From an uncultured Bacteroidia bacterium (GTDB taxonomy: Bacteria; Bacteroidota; Bacteroidia; Bacteroidales; UBA932): DNA of 64,000 nt. The notes under the pieces were generated by a model. That model was given only the letters and a program-made list of their open reading frames with translations, ran no database searches and was not told the DNA's origin. Both the position numbers and the translations under genes were made by a program. This document shows positions 1 through 26,025 of the stretch, in pieces; position 1 is the stretch's first letter, and the number at the start of each line of letters is the position of its first letter. The stretch lies in contig CADAOB010000006.1 in assembly GCA_902789445.1 (NCBI GenBank), positions 26,684-90,683 on the forward strand, given 5' to 3'.

Positions 1-546
1 TTCGAGAAATGGCATCACATAGCTCTTTCGTTCAACAAGCGGGCGTTGAAGGTCTATGTCGATGAGCAGCGGGTTATCAATATCCCCAATATGAATGCCC
101 CGAAGTGGGTTGTCTTTGGAACCAATAGTGATGCGCCCCGAACACACTTCATCAAGAACGTCCGCATCGCCAAGGGAGCCGTGCCTTTGTATGACCGCCT
201 GGCCTCCGACGGGAAGATTGTGACCTATGCCATCACCTTCGACACCGGCAAGGCCACCATCAGGCCCGAGAGTACCGGCGAGATCAACCGCATCACCAAG
301 ATCATGACGGACGATCCTTCGATCAACTTCGAGATCCAGGGCCACTGCGACAACACCGGCTCCGACGCCGTCAACGATCCGCTCTCCCAGAAACGGGCCG
401 AGGCCATCCTGGCCGCTCTCGTGGCGAACGGTATCGACGCCTCCCGCCTGACCGCCGTCGGCAAAGGCGCCCACGAACCCATCGCCGACAACGCCACCGA
501 CGAAGGCCGCGCCAAGAACCGCCGCGTCGAATTCGTAAAGAAATAA
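1..546 (+). CDS. OmpA-family protein, 5'-truncated by window edge
   Basis: The reading frame is open from base 1, so the N-terminus lies outside the window; the TTG at 46 is not a convincing start because homologous-looking sequence continues upstream of it. The first 60 or so visible residues (W-H-H-I-A-L and later K-V-Y-V-D-E) resemble the end of a LamG/concanavalin-like beta-sandwich. The last 110 residues are an OmpA C-terminal domain: a strand with F-D-T-G-K-A-T-I, then G-H-C-D-N-T-G, S-Q-K-R-A-E and a final N-R-R-V-E-F. Such domains bind peptidoglycan from the periplasm. The OmpA assignment is secure; the lectin-like part is inferred from a short stretch. Confidence 0.85.
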   Translation, partial: FEKWHHIALSFNKRALKVYVDEQRVINIPNMNAPKWVVFGTNSDAPRTHFIKNVRIAKGAVPLYDRLASDGKIVTYAITFDTGKATIRPESTGEINRITKIMTDDPSINFEIQGHCDNTGSDAVNDPLSQKRAEAILAALVANGIDASRLTAVGKGAHEPIADNATDEGRAKNRRVEFVKK

Positions 547-556
547 ATGCAGAACC

Positions 557-1156
557 ATGGGAATTCTTGGTAATCTACTTTCTGACGCCTTGAGTGGCGA
601 AAAGAAAGAACTGACCCCCGAAGAGCAGGAACAGGCCACCAAGGCGGCCGAGGTGCTGAAGGGATTCGGTGCTATGTTCTCGGGGGCCGTCGAGATGGCC
701 AAACGGGAGGCGGCCGCCGAGGCCGAGGCACGCAAAGCCGCTGAAGCGGCCATCTTCGACAACTGGGGCGAAAACCTGCCAGCCTATCCGATTTGGGACG
801 TGGGCGGCAGCGCATTCGAACTGGAAGAACGCACGCCGATGAATGGTCACCCGGCCTACAGTTTCCGGCTAACCGGCCGACCGTTCCTGGTGGAGCAGTA
901 TGCCGCCAAACTGCGCGCCGACGGTTTCACCGCCATGCACTGCAGCAATCCGGCCGACCTGAACGCCGACACCTATTTTAAGATGATCGACGGCGTCTGC
1001 CACGCCTTCAACCGCACCGACGCCTGCATGGACGGCCAGATCAGTGTCTCGTTCTACGTAGACAACTATGTCCCCAAACCGAAGATGGAGCCACGCCAAC
1101 CTGCCTCCGACCTGAAGGGCGTAGCCAGAGGCCTCTTCAAGAAATTGCTCGGATAG
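557..1156 (+). CDS. Hypothetical protein with N-terminal helical segment
   Basis: A 199-residue protein that I do not recognise. Residues 15-70 are rich in Glu, Lys and Ala (E-E-Q-E-Q-A-T-K-A-A-E, later A-A-A-E-A-E-A-R-K-A-A-E-A-A) and should form a long helix or coiled coil. The rest is a compact alpha/beta domain with several aromatic residues and three cysteines, ending in a basic K-K-L-L-G tail. There is no signal peptide or membrane segment. It begins ten bases after the OmpA-family gene and is probably co-transcribed with it, so a cell-envelope link is possible but not shown. Confidence 0.6.
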   Translation: MGILGNLLSDALSGEKKELTPEEQEQATKAAEVLKGFGAMFSGAVEMAKREAAAEAEARKAAEAAIFDNWGENLPAYPIWDVGGSAFELEERTPMNGHPAYSFRLTGRPFLVEQYAAKLRADGFTAMHCSNPADLNADTYFKMIDGVCHAFNRTDACMDGQISVSFYVDNYVPKPKMEPRQPASDLKGVARGLFKKLLG

Positions 1157-1218: not shown

Positions 1219-1347
1219 TCAGGATTCCGGGCTGAGGTCCCAGACGGGCCGTGCTGCTTCCATGGAACGCCCTTACGCTCCTCCTCCCGCCCCCTCTCCC
1301 GCTCACCCTGGCGCGGAAACCACTGGTTATCAAGTGATTAAATGGTT

Positions 1348-1373
1348 CCCCTATACGGTTTTCCGCATAGGGG
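1348..1373. repeat. REP-like hairpin C1 of the RAYT1 family
   Basis: Imperfect palindrome with arms CCCCTATACGG and CCGCATAGGGG around a TTTT loop, one A/C mismatch in an 11-base stem. It is the first of four related hairpins around the RAYT gene at 1612-2535. Confidence 0.7.
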
Positions 1374-1516
1374 AATTACATATTATGCTTACTGATAGAC
1401 AATTAGCCGCCATGAGCCAAAGATATGTCGATCTTAGGCATTCCGCACAATTCCATCCACGCCCATCCCCGGGAATGGCATTTAATCTACTGATTATTAA
1501 AAACTTAACCAAAATA

Positions 1517-1538
1517 CCTATACGGTTACCCGTATAGG
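1517..1538. repeat. REP-like hairpin C2 of the RAYT1 family
   Basis: Perfect 9-base stem CCTATACGG / CCGTATAGG with a TTAC loop. Its centre is about 167 bases from hairpin C1 and it lies 74 bases beyond the 3' end of the RAYT gene. The sequence between C1 and C2 shares blocks with that between C3 and C4 (see findings). Confidence 0.75.
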
Positions 1539-1611
1539 CATTTTCGATAAACAGTTTGTAATCTGATACTTATGTGCCAGCCATCAAAAAAGGCAGAGGT
1601 TAAGGCGGAGG

Positions 1612-2535
1612 TTAAGGCGGCGGCAGATGAAAAAACTTGGCTATTTGGAACCAGGGTGCCCTGGTTTTACGCGCAACGGTAACAGCGATTCGCTTCCGTT
1701 CTCCTTCCTCCAGGAAGAAAATGTCTTTGATGTTCGAAATCGGATAATGTTCCAGCAGGTATTTTGTTATTGTCTGATAGATTGCGTCAGATTCTTTGTG
1801 ATGAACTTCCCTTACGTCATATTCGCTGCCGGTCGTCGTATTGAATGCCGTAACCATTGCATTGTAACTCCCGAAGTATTTGATAACCTCGGGATAGTCG
1901 ATACAATTGTATTGTTGGATGGTATAATCAGTCAACTGTCTTTTCTCCATTGCGGTCAGCGGTTTTGTCATCCGTTCAATAAGCGCGTAGTTCAGCGGAA
2001 TATCCTGTTCCCGGTTGATTCGGATCAATTGCATCGCTTTCCGCATAGGCCGCCTCGCCTTTGCGGAATCAATCGGTGCTGAGAAAGGAGCATTCCGGAT
2101 GGCATATTGAAGGAAATTCCATTGCCCACTTTCTACATCATCCGCCAACTGTTTTTCTACCAAATTGTTGTAGAGATAGGCAATGGCAAAACGGCTCTTT
2201 TTGTCTGTCGTTTTGACAGCACTTCCGAAAGAATGGCGAAAAAACTGGCCTTTGCGGTTTACCGTTGGATTGTAAAGCAGGACAAAGCGGGAAGTATAGT
2301 AACACACAAACTGGCTGAGATCCTGCTTTCGTTCCGCGATTGCCAGAATATGAACATGATCTGGCATCAGGCATACGCCCAGTATCTTGACATTGTATTT
2401 TCGGGCAGCTATGGATAGTAAAGAAAAGAATACCAGATAGTCTCTGACCGAATAAAAGATAAGACAACCATCTACCGTATTTTGATAGATATGTTGGATG
2501 GTACCAACCTTGAAGATCCGTTCGCTCCCTCTCAT
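1612..2535 (-). CDS. REP-associated tyrosine transposase (RAYT), Y1/HUH family
   Basis: A 307-residue single-strand DNA endonuclease of the TnpA-REP/Y1 type. The HUH pair is H60 and H62 in P-D-H-V-H-I-L, and the catalytic tyrosine should be in A-Y-L-Y-N-N (Y120 or Y122). A C-terminal extension of about 170 residues is shared with the paralogue at 24934-25884; the two proteins align from the first residues (I-Q-H-I-Y-Q-N-T-V-D-G) to the end (H-L-P). Such proteins nick and rejoin REP hairpins and are usually single-copy domesticated genes rather than mobile units. The gene and its flanks are more AT-rich than neighbouring genes. Hairpin doublets sit on both sides. The two P-P-P codons at the end run into a short tandem repeat (GAGGTTAAGGCG twice, 1596-1619). 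Confidence 0.85.
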   Translation of the reverse strand: MRGSERIFKVGTIQHIYQNTVDGCLIFYSVRDYLVFFSLLSIAARKYNVKILGVCLMPDHVHILAIAERKQDLSQFVCYYTSRFVLLYNPTVNRKGQFFRHSFGSAVKTTDKKSRFAIAYLYNNLVEKQLADDVESGQWNFLQYAIRNAPFSAPIDSAKARRPMRKAMQLIRINREQDIPLNYALIERMTKPLTAMEKRQLTDYTIQQYNCIDYPEVIKYFGSYNAMVTAFNTTTGSEYDVREVHHKESDAIYQTITKYLLEHYPISNIKDIFFLEEGERKRIAVTVARKTRAPWFQIAKFFHLPPP

Positions 2536-2584
2536 AATCTGTCATCACAATAAAGATGTTCAGGCGGCACTATTGCCTAAAGTG

Positions 2585-2616
2585 CAAAGATAATATGCGG
2601 AACTGCCGTTTTGCAA
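2585..2616 (-). promoter_or_regulatory. Promoter of RAYT1
   Basis: On the minus strand TATCTTTG (2585-2592) is preceded by TTG (2614-2616) with 21 bases between, the Bacteroidota -7/-33 arrangement. The leader to the ATG at 2535 is about 49 bases. Confidence 0.6.
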
Positions 2617-2679
2617 ATTTATTTACTATTTTTTTTGCCTCGGCAGGTATTGCTCTGATATATAACCTATTGCTCGCTT

Positions 2680-2705
2680 TCCCTATACGGTTCCTCGCAT
2701 AGGGA
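2680..2705. repeat. REP-like hairpin C3 of the RAYT1 family
   Basis: Arms TCCCTAT and ATAGGGA, inner ACG...CGC, the same plan and orientation as C1. It lies upstream of the RAYT promoter. Confidence 0.7.
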
Positions 2706-2844
2706 TTCAAGTTAGTAAACTGATGCTGGGAAAGCTATGCGCCAAAGGCTGCTTTGACCGGCTGATCAGTCGTATTATCGTGATTATGGAGATCACGAAG
2801 CGTATAGCAGCCAGACGGCTGATAATCAACGGATCACAAGAAAC

Positions 2845-2868
2845 GCCTATACGATCCATCGCATAGGC
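2845..2868. repeat. REP-like hairpin C4 of the RAYT1 family
   Basis: Arms GCCTAT and ATAGGC around ACG...CGC. The centre is about 164 bases from C3, matching the C1-C2 distance. On its right side (2871-2889) the reverse complement reads TATTAGTCACTTTTCGTAA, resembling the flank of the hairpins of the second RAYT. Between 2869 and 3028 I see no gene. Confidence 0.7.
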
Positions 2869-3028
2869 AGTTACGAAAAGTGACTAATAGCGAGTAACTT
2901 GATTGTCAAGCGGCCATGTAAACATTACGGAGCATCTGGCGAGTTAAAGGGTTTCGGTACGAAGAAGCGAGGTATGCACCGTTGAGATGCCCGGTCAAGC
3001 CGTGCATGACGGCATGAGCATGAGGGAG

Positions 3029-4426
3029 TCAGGCGAGGCCGAGTTCGGCGGCCTTCTGTTCCATGAGGGCGTAGGCGGCGGAGAATTCGTTGGGGATGAC
3101 GCCGTCGAGGATGGCTTCCTTGACCGCTTCCTTGATCAGGCCGATCTCCTTGCAGGGCGGAATATGATACTTCTCCATGACGAGTTCGCCCGTGATCGGA
3201 TTCTTGAAATTGCGGACGGCGTCTTTCGCCTCGACTTCGACCAGTTTTTCCTTGACGTGGTCGTACTGCTTCTTGTAGCGCTCGACTTTCTGCTCGTTGG
3301 CCGAGGTGATGTCGGCCTTGCACAGGAGCATCAGGTCGTCGATATCGTCGCCGGCGTCGAAAAGCAGGCGGCGCACCGCCGAATCGGTAACCTCGTCGGT
3401 CACCAGGGCGATGGGACGCATGTGGAGCGCCACCAGTTTCTGGACATAGCGCATATCGTCGGTCTGCGACATCTTCAGGCGGCTGAAGACAGCCTTGACC
3501 ATCTTCGATCCCACGTATTCGTGTCCGCGGAATGTCCAGCCCGTATCGGGTTCCCAATGTTTGGTCGCGGCCTTGCCGATGTCGTGAAGCAGGGCGGCCC
3601 AGCGGAGCCAGAGCTTGTCGCTGGCGGCAGCCACATTGTCGAGCACCTGGAGCGAATGGCGGAAATTGTCCTTGTGGCCGCGGCCGTCCACCGTCTCGAC
3701 ACCCTTGAGGTTGGCCAGCGCCGGCAGGACATAGGGCAGCAATTCGCACCGGTCGAGCAGATAGAAGCCCACCGAGGGCTTGGGCGCCTTCATGATCTTG
3801 TTCAGCTCGTCGGCGATACGCTCGGCGGAGAGGATCGACAGTCGCTCCTTGTTGCGGCGCATCGATTCGATCGATTCGGGAACGATGGAGAAACCCAGCT
3901 GCGTGGCAAAACGGATGGCCCGCAGCATCCGAAGGGGATCGTCGCTGTAGGTCGTGTCGGGATCGAGCGGTGTACGGATGATCCCGTCGTTGAGATCGCG
4001 GATGCCGCCGAAAGGATCGACCAGGCTGCCATAGTCTTCCTGCTGGAGACTGAAGGCCATCGCATTGATGGTAAAATCGCGGCGGCGCTGGTCTTCTTCC
4101 AGCGTGCCGTCTTCGACGATGGGTTTGCGGGAATCGGCCCGGTAAGATTCGCGGCGCGCGCCCACAAATTCCAATTCGCAGTCTTTCCAGCGCAGCATAG
4201 CCGTTCCGAAACGTTTAAAAACGTTTACCCGGGTGTGCAGTTTCGCCGCAACGGCCTGGGCCAGGTCGATGCCGCTGCCCTCAACCACGATGTCGATGTC
4301 GTTGTTGGGACGCTGCAGGAAGAAATCGCGGACATAACCGCCGATGACGAAGGCGCGCACGCCCTGGGCGCGCGCCGCCTCGGCGACGACGCTGAAGATT
4401 TTGCTGTTGAGCGCCTGATCGATCAT
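3029..4426 (-). CDS. cca: CCA tRNA nucleotidyltransferase with HD domain
   Basis: Adds or repairs the 3'-CCA end of tRNAs. The N-terminal nucleotidyltransferase head has G-G-Y-V-R-D followed by D-I-D-I-V, the metal-binding aspartates, and R-R-D-F-T-I-N-A-M-A-F. The poly(A) polymerase/CCA fold follows (D-P-L-R-M-L-R-A-I-R-F-A), then an HD phosphohydrolase domain (L-L-H-D-I-G-K) in the C-terminal half. At 465 residues it is a normal length. The start at 4426 gives the conserved N-terminus; a longer frame to 4645 would run through its own promoter and into the divergent holA gene. A TATCTTTG box ends only four bases before the ATG. Confidence 0.93.
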   Translation of the reverse strand: MIDQALNSKIFSVVAEAARAQGVRAFVIGGYVRDFFLQRPNNDIDIVVEGSGIDLAQAVAAKLHTRVNVFKRFGTAMLRWKDCELEFVGARRESYRADSRKPIVEDGTLEEDQRRRDFTINAMAFSLQQEDYGSLVDPFGGIRDLNDGIIRTPLDPDTTYSDDPLRMLRAIRFATQLGFSIVPESIESMRRNKERLSILSAERIADELNKIMKAPKPSVGFYLLDRCELLPYVLPALANLKGVETVDGRGHKDNFRHSLQVLDNVAAASDKLWLRWAALLHDIGKAATKHWEPDTGWTFRGHEYVGSKMVKAVFSRLKMSQTDDMRYVQKLVALHMRPIALVTDEVTDSAVRRLLFDAGDDIDDLMLLCKADITSANEQKVERYKKQYDHVKEKLVEVEAKDAVRNFKNPITGELVMEKYHIPPCKEIGLIKEAVKEAILDGVIPNEFSAAYALMEQKAAELGLA

Positions 4427-4430
4427 ACGG

Positions 4431-4438
4431 CAAAGATA
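4431..4438 (-). promoter_or_regulatory. -7 box of cca, almost touching the start codon
   Basis: Minus-strand TATCTTTG, four bases before the ATG at 4426. No clear -33 TTG. Implies a leaderless or near-leaderless transcript. Confidence 0.5.
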
Positions 4439-24580: not shown

Positions 24581-24698
24581 AAAAAGTGACGACAAGGATG
24601 GCGACGGCCGGGGCGATGGTGGGGCGCCAGCCGAGACGCCGCGATGGAAGGGCGCTGGCATGAACAATGGCAGGTCCGACAGCCGGGCACCAGAGGAG

Positions 24699-24809
24699 CG
24701 CTGGAGATTAAATCGATGGTTATTAGCAACTTACGTAATCCTGCCCCACTTGCCAGAGGGCGGGCAGGATTGCATAAGATACTACATAACAGCGCTTTAA
24801 CCTCCAGCG
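24699..24809. repeat. REPIN-like element, copy A of the RAYT2 family
   Basis: Outer inverted repeats at 24699-24711 and 24797-24809 match at 12 of 13 positions (CGCTGGAGATTAA against CGCTGGAGGTTAA). Inside is a perfect 10-base hairpin AATCCTGCCC (24737-24746) / GGGCAGGATT (24762-24771). The left side carries TATTAGCAACTTACGTAA (24721-24738). The rest of the 24558-24933 gap holds no gene that I can see. Confidence 0.75.
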
Positions 24810-24874
24810 GCCGCCGATCAGCCCGTGGCTTGGCTGTCGCATGAGATGGAATGACTGTTTTTTCGCAATTATAT

Positions 24875-24933: not shown

Positions 24934-25884
24934 ATGAGGGGAAGGATTTCTTTTCGGCAGGGAGCCATTCAGCACATTTATCAGAATACGGTCGACGGCG
25001 TCTTGATCTTTTATTCCGTGCGGGACTTCCTGGTTTTCTTTACGACTTTTGCGACCGTATCCCGCCACTACGATATCCGCATTCTGGGTATCTGTCTGAT
25101 GTTCGACCACATTCATCTCCTGGTCGAAGCGCGGAACAAGGCCTGCCTGGACCGCTTCGTCAGCCACTATACCAGCTGGTTTGTCCGGCAATACAACGAA
25201 TGGTATGGCCTGAAGGGGTCTCTGTTCAATCGCGCGTATGGCTTGGCTTCCAAGGTGTCTGACAAAGACATCCGCAGCGCCATCGCGTATCTTTACAACA
25301 ATCCGGTAGAGCGTCGCTTATGCCTGAGGGCGGAGCAGTCCCGCTGGAATTTTCTTGCTTTTGGCGAGCGTCCATACCCGTTTTCATCACCTATACGGCT
25401 GGACAAGGCCCGGGCTCCGATGCGCCGGGCGGTGGAAGAGGTCAAGATCAGCCGTAAAGATGAGCGGCCTCTGAATTATGCCCAGCTCAAGCGGATCACA
25501 CGCCATCTGACGCCCGCAGAGCAGCAGCAGTTGACGGATTTCGCCATCTCGACTTACAATTGCATTGATTATCAGGATTTAATCTATCGTTTTGATGACT
25601 ACGGTTCCCTGCTGACTGCCCTCTCGACAACAACTGGAAGTGAGCATGGCCTGAAGGAAACTTTTGTAGGCCGTTCAGACAAGATATACCAGCAGATGAC
25701 CACTTTTCTGCTGGAATCTCACTGCATTTCCAATCCGGACGATCTGCTCCGAATGCCGCTTGAAAAACGGCGTGAACTGTTCGAACCACTTTGGATCTGG
25801 TCCGGTGTAAGCCGACGCCAGGTTGAGAAATACCTTCATCTGCCCGAGGGGGCTGGAGGCCAAATTACTGACAATCAAAGATAA
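24934..25884 (+). CDS. REP-associated tyrosine transposase (RAYT), second paralogue
   Basis: A 316-residue Y1/HUH protein homologous over its full length to the one at 1612-2535. The HUH pair is H59 and H61 in F-D-H-I-H-L-L and the nucleophile should be in A-Y-L-Y-N-N-P (Y119 or Y121). The conserved C-terminal extension contains T-Y-N-C-I-D-Y and ends R-R-Q-V-E-K-Y-L-H-L-P. Unlike the first copy it is flanked by hairpins with a CCTGCCC stem. The last ten or so codons and the stop lie inside the downstream element, so the C-terminal tail is encoded by repeat DNA. The active site looks intact. Confidence 0.87.
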   Translation: MRGRISFRQGAIQHIYQNTVDGVLIFYSVRDFLVFFTTFATVSRHYDIRILGICLMFDHIHLLVEARNKACLDRFVSHYTSWFVRQYNEWYGLKGSLFNRAYGLASKVSDKDIRSAIAYLYNNPVERRLCLRAEQSRWNFLAFGERPYPFSSPIRLDKARAPMRRAVEEVKISRKDERPLNYAQLKRITRHLTPAEQQQLTDFAISTYNCIDYQDLIYRFDDYGSLLTALSTTTGSEHGLKETFVGRSDKIYQQMTTFLLESHCISNPDDLLRMPLEKRRELFEPLWIWSGVSRRQVEKYLHLPEGAGGQITDNQR

Positions 25885-25960
25885 GCGCAATCCTGCCCTA
25901 CTCGCCGAAGGGAGGGCTGGATCCAGCAAATCGCTACTGATCAGCTGGTTACCCTCCAGC
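25852..25960. repeat. REPIN-like element, copy B of the RAYT2 family
   Basis: Same orientation and plan as copy A: outer GCTGGAGG (25852-25859) / CCTCCAGC (25953-25960), inner hairpin ATCCTGCCCT (25890-25899) / AGGGCTGGAT (25913-25922) with one mismatch. The hairpin segment aligns closely with copy A. The element begins inside the RAYT2 gene. Confidence 0.7.
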
Positions 25961-26025
25961 GGGCGAAAATGGCAGTTGTCTGCCGAAAGAAACGTTTGCT
26001 CCGAAACTGCAAAAAAAAGGACATC

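Follow-up and report, generated by a model that had tools for sequence, protein, structure and literature searches.

Within the 64-kb stretch of uncultured Bacteroidia DNA analysed here (the window) a RAYT gene, RAYT1, lies between two pairs of hairpins. Each hairpin is the centre of a longer repeat unit, and solitary copies of this unit are present elsewhere in the genome. RAYT1 and the units probably constitute a system of the RAYT/REP kind, in which a RAYT, diverged and present as one copy, persists between its own repeats while solitary copies of these are dispersed. The best reading is a new form of such a system, lacking the GTAG foot. The first-pass annotation of the window had already assigned the repeats to the RAYT system; the partnership is supported by the present analysis, while the pair of hairpins is not supported as the element.

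The four hairpins (C1 to C4) have the arms CCTATACG-N6-CGYATAGG, located at 1350-1371, 1517-1538, 2682-2703 and 2846-2867, i.e. two on each side of the gene, as annotated. The start-to-start distances are 167 nt (C1-C2), 1165 nt (C2-C3) and 164 nt (C3-C4), so that the pair spacings of ~167 and ~164 given in the annotation are confirmed by measurement. The hairpin pattern did not occur in 100 shuffles of the 64-kb window. When folded as single-stranded DNA the plus strands of C1 to C4 were equalled by 0, 0, 5 and 0 of 200 shuffled sequences respectively, and the minus strands by 0, 0, 3 and 0. The pattern, the shuffles and the folding all confirm the four hairpins as genuine and beyond chance. 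The stems of C1, C3 and C4 contain an A.C mismatch (G.T on the other strand), by which these three are seen to read in the same direction. C2 is symmetrical, with fully palindromic arms, and the flanks leave orientation undecided; the claim that all four hairpins have one orientation is thus based on the mismatch in the other three.

Each hairpin is the innermost of three nested dyads in a unit of ~105-135 bp, the others being the outer inverted ends and the inner CTGATNNTCAG-like arms. Moving outward from the hairpins in the window there are arms like CTGATNATCA and then outer ends resembling TGGCGC...GCGCCA. The four units at RAYT1 are named U1 to U4 (Table 1). U1 comprises an outer end CTGGCGC, an inner arm, the hairpin (1346-1375), a second inner arm and an outer end CCGCCA; it is followed by a second GAGCCAAAG that reaches 1422. 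U2 has a TGGC end, an CTGATTATTA arm, a hairpin with perfect arms (1511-1544), the mirror arm and a GCCA end. In U3 a CGGCAGG end and CTGATATATA arm precede the hairpin (2680-2705), which is followed by the mirror arm and an GCGCCAAAG end. U4 is made up of an CCAGACGG end, an CTGATAATCA arm, the hairpin (2845-2868), an TTGATTGTCA arm and a GCGGCCA end.

Table 1. RAYT genes and repeat units in the window. E values for U1 to U4 are those obtained with the DNA model built from the solitary copies.
Feature	Coordinates	Strand	Remarks
Unit U1	1308..1413 (ends approximate)	+	E 5e-9
Unit U2	1475..1580 (ends approximate)	.	E 2.2e-12
RAYT1	1612..2535	-	307-aa Y1 (IS200-like) transposase; single-strand recognition and cleavage are predictions
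Unit U3	2641..2747 (ends approximate)	+	E 2.1e-7
Unit U4	2811..2915 (ends approximate)	+	E 1.1e-8
RAYT2 upstream unit	24692..24811	+	in the training set of another unit model
RAYT2	24934..25884	+	316 aa, ~47% identical to RAYT1
RAYT2 downstream unit	25846..25969	+	found by that other model, absent from its training set

It had been proposed that each side of the gene carries a diverged copy of one composite element of ~190 bases. Ungapped comparison of the flanks of U1 to U4 gives identities of 42-49 of 110 positions; the corresponding values for random window pairs have a mean of 28.4 (sd 5.3), with 49 the largest of 5000. Taken together, the identities between units on the same side (47 for U1-U2, 43 for U3-U4) do not fall below those across the gene (46 for U1-U3, 49 for U2-U4, 47 for U1-U4, 42 for U2-U3). 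The four units are thus about equally related, and the copying of one doublet to both sides is unsupported. Given this, and the single unit per side at most RAYT loci (see below), the doublet was rejected as the repeated element, which is instead the single unit of ~105-120 bp with the hairpin at its centre; judged by their flanks, the pairs at RAYT1 appear not to be two copies of one doublet. The matching words on which the composite had been based are real, and are explained as parts of units. ATGAGCCAAAG and ATGCGCCAAAG are located at outer ends of U1 and U3, while in U2 and U4 the words CTGATTATTAA and CTGATAATCAA form inner arms.

The genome containing the window (G000) is represented by 2.26 Mb and is 84% complete. 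The strict hairpin pattern occurs at the four places in the window only. On freeing the innermost base pair (CCTATRC N6-12 GYATAGG) eight places were found, four of them new, compared with one for the reversed pattern. The four new, solitary copies are on contigs C3, C8, C31 and C54, and all have a spacer of 8 although 6-12 was permitted. Outer ends and arms can be seen by eye, being weakest in C3, and the hairpin is intergenic in all three of the four solitary loci for which open reading frames were listed. A DNA model constructed from these four copies alone recovers U1 to U4 with E values between 2e-12 and 2e-7, the next match having E 0.45. After masking of the hairpin, U1 to U4 and both RAYT2 units were still the six top-scoring places of the window, the last three scores being weak (E 0.09 to 0.2). 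The hairpin is absent from 37 of the 39 other genomes of the genus, with two places in one genome and one in another; these three places compare with 11 for the reversed control. A search allowing three mismatches was uninformative, the pattern being no more common than the control (15/13 versus 21/18). The first-pass annotation had named two results that would speak against it, namely hairpins found nowhere else and hairpins equally common in genomes without the RAYT. Neither was obtained for the RAYT1 hairpin.

RAYT1 matches the Pfam family Y1_Tnp (PF01797) with E 1.8e-8 and 35 bits (cut-off 23), and scores 36.1 bits against the NCBIfam model REP_Tyr_transpos, under its cut-off of 80. It has a DHVH motif at residues 59-62, and D59, H60, H62 and Y120 are invariant across five aligned relatives, the tyrosine lying within YLYNN. 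No Pfam family matches the ~150 C-terminal residues, and a sequence search of solved structures returned nothing significant (best E 0.085, an unrelated protein). The structure model has a mean pLDDT of 63.4, falling below 50 for residues 98-139. Because of this low confidence the fold search is given weak weight; its top matches are IS200/IS605 transposases, none with an E value better than 0.26, and the E. coli RAYT 4er8 ranks 49th.

The genome contains four further matches to RAYT1, three of which are long (47, 41 and 38% identity) and one weak. RAYT2 has an upstream unit with an CGCTGGAG end, an AATCCTGCCC hairpin and an CTCCAGCG end. We note that the last residues and stop codon of RAYT2 are encoded by the left arm of its downstream unit (window 25851-25884); at locus L060 (~1955-1984) the outer arm of a unit provides the last codons and stop of another gene. 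One of the long matches has an internal TGA in frame (G000:C1:140464-141378, L042), and units of its type outnumber all others seen in the genome. At the third RAYT (L039, contig C16, 1599-1952) four TCTTTCTG-type hairpins are arranged in tandem on one side with a spacing of ~108 nt. More widely, RAYT1 matches were found in 57 of 149 sampled genomes of the same family at E 1e-3, and in 23 of 40 genomes of the same genus at E 1e-20. The three nearest named hits are uncultured Bacteroidales/Bacteroidia, which suggests that the host belongs to Bacteroidales.

When the upstream flank of each of 38 strong RAYT loci was compared with the downstream one, 22 loci shared a repeat scoring more than 32.8 bits; 2 of 190 mismatched pairings did so, both between members of one RAYT subclade. 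In this plain comparison the RAYT1 locus scores 31.9 bits, within the range of the controls (best 32.8). The layout recurs with the other outer ends CTGGAG, CGTGGC, CGCTGCAACGGACGCA, TTGGC and GTGCAC, and with different hairpins. From 62 loci 118 hairpins were drawn, some of them surely unrelated; an outer-end complementarity score of at least 9 was reached by 46 of these (83 of 1180 shuffles), and an CTGATNNTCAG arm motif sum of at least 14 by 35 (11 of 1180 shuffles). Units were counted using four unit models in 40 hand-typed loci, within at most 650 nt. The numbers upstream and downstream were (1,1) in 27 loci, (1,0) in four, (0,1) in three, (2,1) in two, (1,2) in one, (0,0) in two and (2,2) in one; the unit type of the two (0,0) loci is one that none of the four models represents. 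The only locus with two units on each side is that of RAYT1. In the 27 loci with one unit per side the pair is direct in 20, inverted in six and not comparable in one by model strand, where the strand calls of near-palindromic units are weak. The tetranucleotide GT[AG]G was sought 5' of the hairpin, within 14 nt, in three unit families, and not one of the 110 strand views contained it (0/16, 0/66 and 0/28).

The type of unit matches the clade of the RAYT. Outer ends were typed by hand in 40 of 61 RAYT loci (21 being untyped), with labels given after seeing the flanks. On a quick maximum-likelihood tree of the RAYT proteins the five outer-end types require four changes, which is the minimum possible; on shuffling the labels the mean was 22.3, and none of 200 shuffles was as low as four. 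RAYT1 itself is on a long branch (0.81) apart from the other four TTGGC-type rows, a placement without strong support.

Two hairpins were followed through the 40 genomes of the genus. The hairpin GTTGAYCCCC N GGGGRTCAAC was found at 59 places in nine genomes (19, 15, 7, 5, 5, 3, 2, 2 and 1 per genome), all 31 nt in length, and the hairpin AATCGGTTGCG N CGCAACCGATT at 37 places in seven (12, 9, 6, 6, 2, 1 and 1), all 30 nt; the control gave 0/40 in each case. All five genomes with the RAYT subclade cognate to the first are among its nine carriers (chance 126/658008 = 1.9e-4), and all four with that cognate to the second are among its seven (35/91390 = 3.8e-4), where both values are too small as probabilities because the genomes are related and incomplete. 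Four carriers of the first hairpin (G174, G158, G160 and G052) and three of the second (G160, G158 and G000) are without the cognate subclade. Among the matches listed, units with outer-end type C are present at ~15 places in G158 and ~6 in G052, and homology searches at E 1e-3 and E 1e-20 detected no RAYT of the family in either genome. These units may be relics, or the RAYT may fall in assembly gaps. For these two hairpins, the genomes with the cognate RAYT subclade are all carriers. G052 and G158 carry units of another type with no RAYT detected, so that for the family as a whole it would go too far to say that only genomes with the RAYT carry units.

One family of units is present in high copy. 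Used as a query, a unit of this family identifies at least 32 distinct places in the genome of the window, and two of the places listed lie at the TGA-containing RAYT. An alignment of 33 units (19 from G034, nine from G103, one from G161 and four from G000) is gap-free over 121 bp, with ends of ~20 bp, TGANNNTCAG arms, a TTAYGCAA-like foot and the hairpin. Pairing in these units is 88.2%, compared with 40-44% when slid; covariation was not beyond that of shuffles, 77 of 500 reaching the score. The flanks of the aligned units are C/T-rich on the left and A/G-rich on the right (A2 columns 25-35 and 147-158), which may mean that the dyad extends further or that a certain target is preferred.

At one intergenic site a unit is present in G103 and absent from G000 and G052, and following the same gene in G158 and G160 there is a unit of the AATCGGTTGCG family; this comparison does not yield a junction exact to the nucleotide. 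Elsewhere an inversion between the sister genomes G103 and G174 covers exactly the 121-bp unit (L201 1456-1576 versus L206). Around L196/L197 these two genomes are too rearranged for comparison, and there is no usable orthologous site for L202 in G174 or G161. G161 also has the RAYT block of G103 in place; in the incomplete G174 it was not found. In none of the 29 other loci examined does a RAYT lie next to the downstream neighbour gene, and in three relatives for which the comparison was extended there is no match to a unit model at the RAYT1 site. In G052, where no RAYT was detected, a solitary CTGGAG-type unit (L148) lies beside the same neighbour gene, in the position occupied by RAYT1 in the window. 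We also note that in the gene pair at window 1-1156 and 2987-4438 (L261-L264) one gene has the opposite orientation to that in G174, G103 and G067. The RAYT block is located at the junction of this inversion. We take the inverted gene to be OmpA-like, and its neighbour is presumably tRNA nucleotidyltransferase-like.

The units might instead be binding sites with a regulatory or chromosome-organising role, the RAYT being a domesticated DNA-binding protein that regulates itself through its flanking units and has no present mobility. This would be consistent with RAYTs that are single and diverged (other full-length copies in the genome are 38-47% identical), with the closeness of the upstream unit to the start of the gene in most typed loci, and with the conserved places of some units in G103 and G174. 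However, the presence or absence of a unit and its replacement by one of another family at an orthologous site, together with at least 32 places for one family in a single genome, indicate past spreading, and we regard this explanation as rather improbable. A size of ~121 bp with inverted ends of ~20 bp would also suit MITEs that an unrelated DDE transposase mobilises through their outer ends, the RAYT having been captured between two of them. No more than 4 of 33 units match at any tested boundary and length, never consistently beyond controls, so there is no excess of target duplication; moreover, the type of outer end tracks the RAYT tree, which makes this origin very unlikely. An insertion sequence of the IS200/IS605 type, in which the RAYT and its units would move together as a block with hairpins of the same orientation at both ends, is similarly very unlikely, since for all the excess of direct over inverted units (20 to 6 in the one-per-side loci), the weak structural matches to IS200/IS605 transposases and the lack of the RAYT block at the RAYT1 site in relatives, the genome has no near-identical RAYT copies (the best other is 47% identical) and the strand calls are weak.

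A system of the RAYT/REP kind thus remains the preferred reading, and it can be compared with those already described. In the RAYT/TnpAREP systems (REPtrons, such as E. coli group 2 and Stenotrophomonas group 3) a Y1 HUH-type gene likewise lies between its own palindromic repeats, which differ for each RAYT and have copies dispersed in the genome. According to the accessible parts of the sources, REP sequences are defined by GT[AG]G beside the hairpin (PMC6006769), and this is used by the E. coli and group-3 enzymes (PMC8266576). By contrast the foot of the present hairpins is without GT[AG]G and the protein has a long C-terminal part; whereas a REP is a hairpin of 20-65 nt, the unit here measures ~105-135 bp and has inner arms and inverted outer ends in addition. 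Nearer in taxonomy is the Bacteroidetes TnpAY1 subclass 2.6, corresponding to RAYT group 5 in the numbering of the 2017 classification as cited in PMC6006769. In the portion of that paper available, 'atypical secondary structures' are reported on the flanks of its genes and again at other places, which resembles the situation here, and the proteins have the motifs NH[LIV]H, WQ and YIH[QN]NP and a mean length of 179 aa. The two RAYTs of the window differ in having DHVH or DHIH, F or L for the expected W, YLYNN, and 307-316 aa. The flanking structures of subclass 2.6 were compared by their description in that text alone, and the same plan is possible there.

In other taxa RAYT-like genes have been described with long flanking repeats unlike GTAG REPs, some self-complementary and some forming dimers or clusters (TIRYT/TIRtron; PMC3733652). 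The present genes similarly lie between repeats unrelated to GTAG REPs, but there is mostly one unit on each side, mostly direct, with the three-layer plan. Taking the long inverted repeat that characterises a TIRtron, the units here are near-palindromic, and direct in 20 and inverted in six of the 26 comparable loci. REPIN/BIME elements also place two REP-like palindromes close together beside a RAYT, but in a REPIN the two REPs are inverted, whereas C1, C3 and C4 have the same orientation, and the dispersed form here is a single unit rather than a pair. IS200/IS605 elements share a Y1 transposase with hairpins on both sides, but multiple near-identical copies are not found here and the dispersed form is the solitary unit. 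The literature search, which covered some sources in part, found no system nearer than these.

We infer that the RAYT recognises, cleaves and mobilises the units. The unit in single-stranded form would be recognised via its central hairpin, and the RAYT would cut and rejoin it; solitary units would thereby spread into intergenic gaps. The outer ends and arms could provide a second layer of specificity. A more specific proposal, which we put forward tentatively and which may well prove wrong, is that these proteins form a class of RAYT with two readings and no GTAG guide. The HUH core would read the clade-specific single-stranded hairpin, and the C-terminal part the outer ends and CTGATNNTCAG arms, creating lock-and-key pairs of which several could exist in one genome without cross-talk.

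In the accessible part of PMC8266576, the choice and spread of repeats by RAYTs is known from few proteins, experimentally in proteobacteria. Here a single genus of another phylum has several RAYT clades, each with its own outer ends and hairpins. These therefore offer natural swaps for finding out which portion of the protein reads which portion of the repeat, and GTAG seems not to be used in this system.
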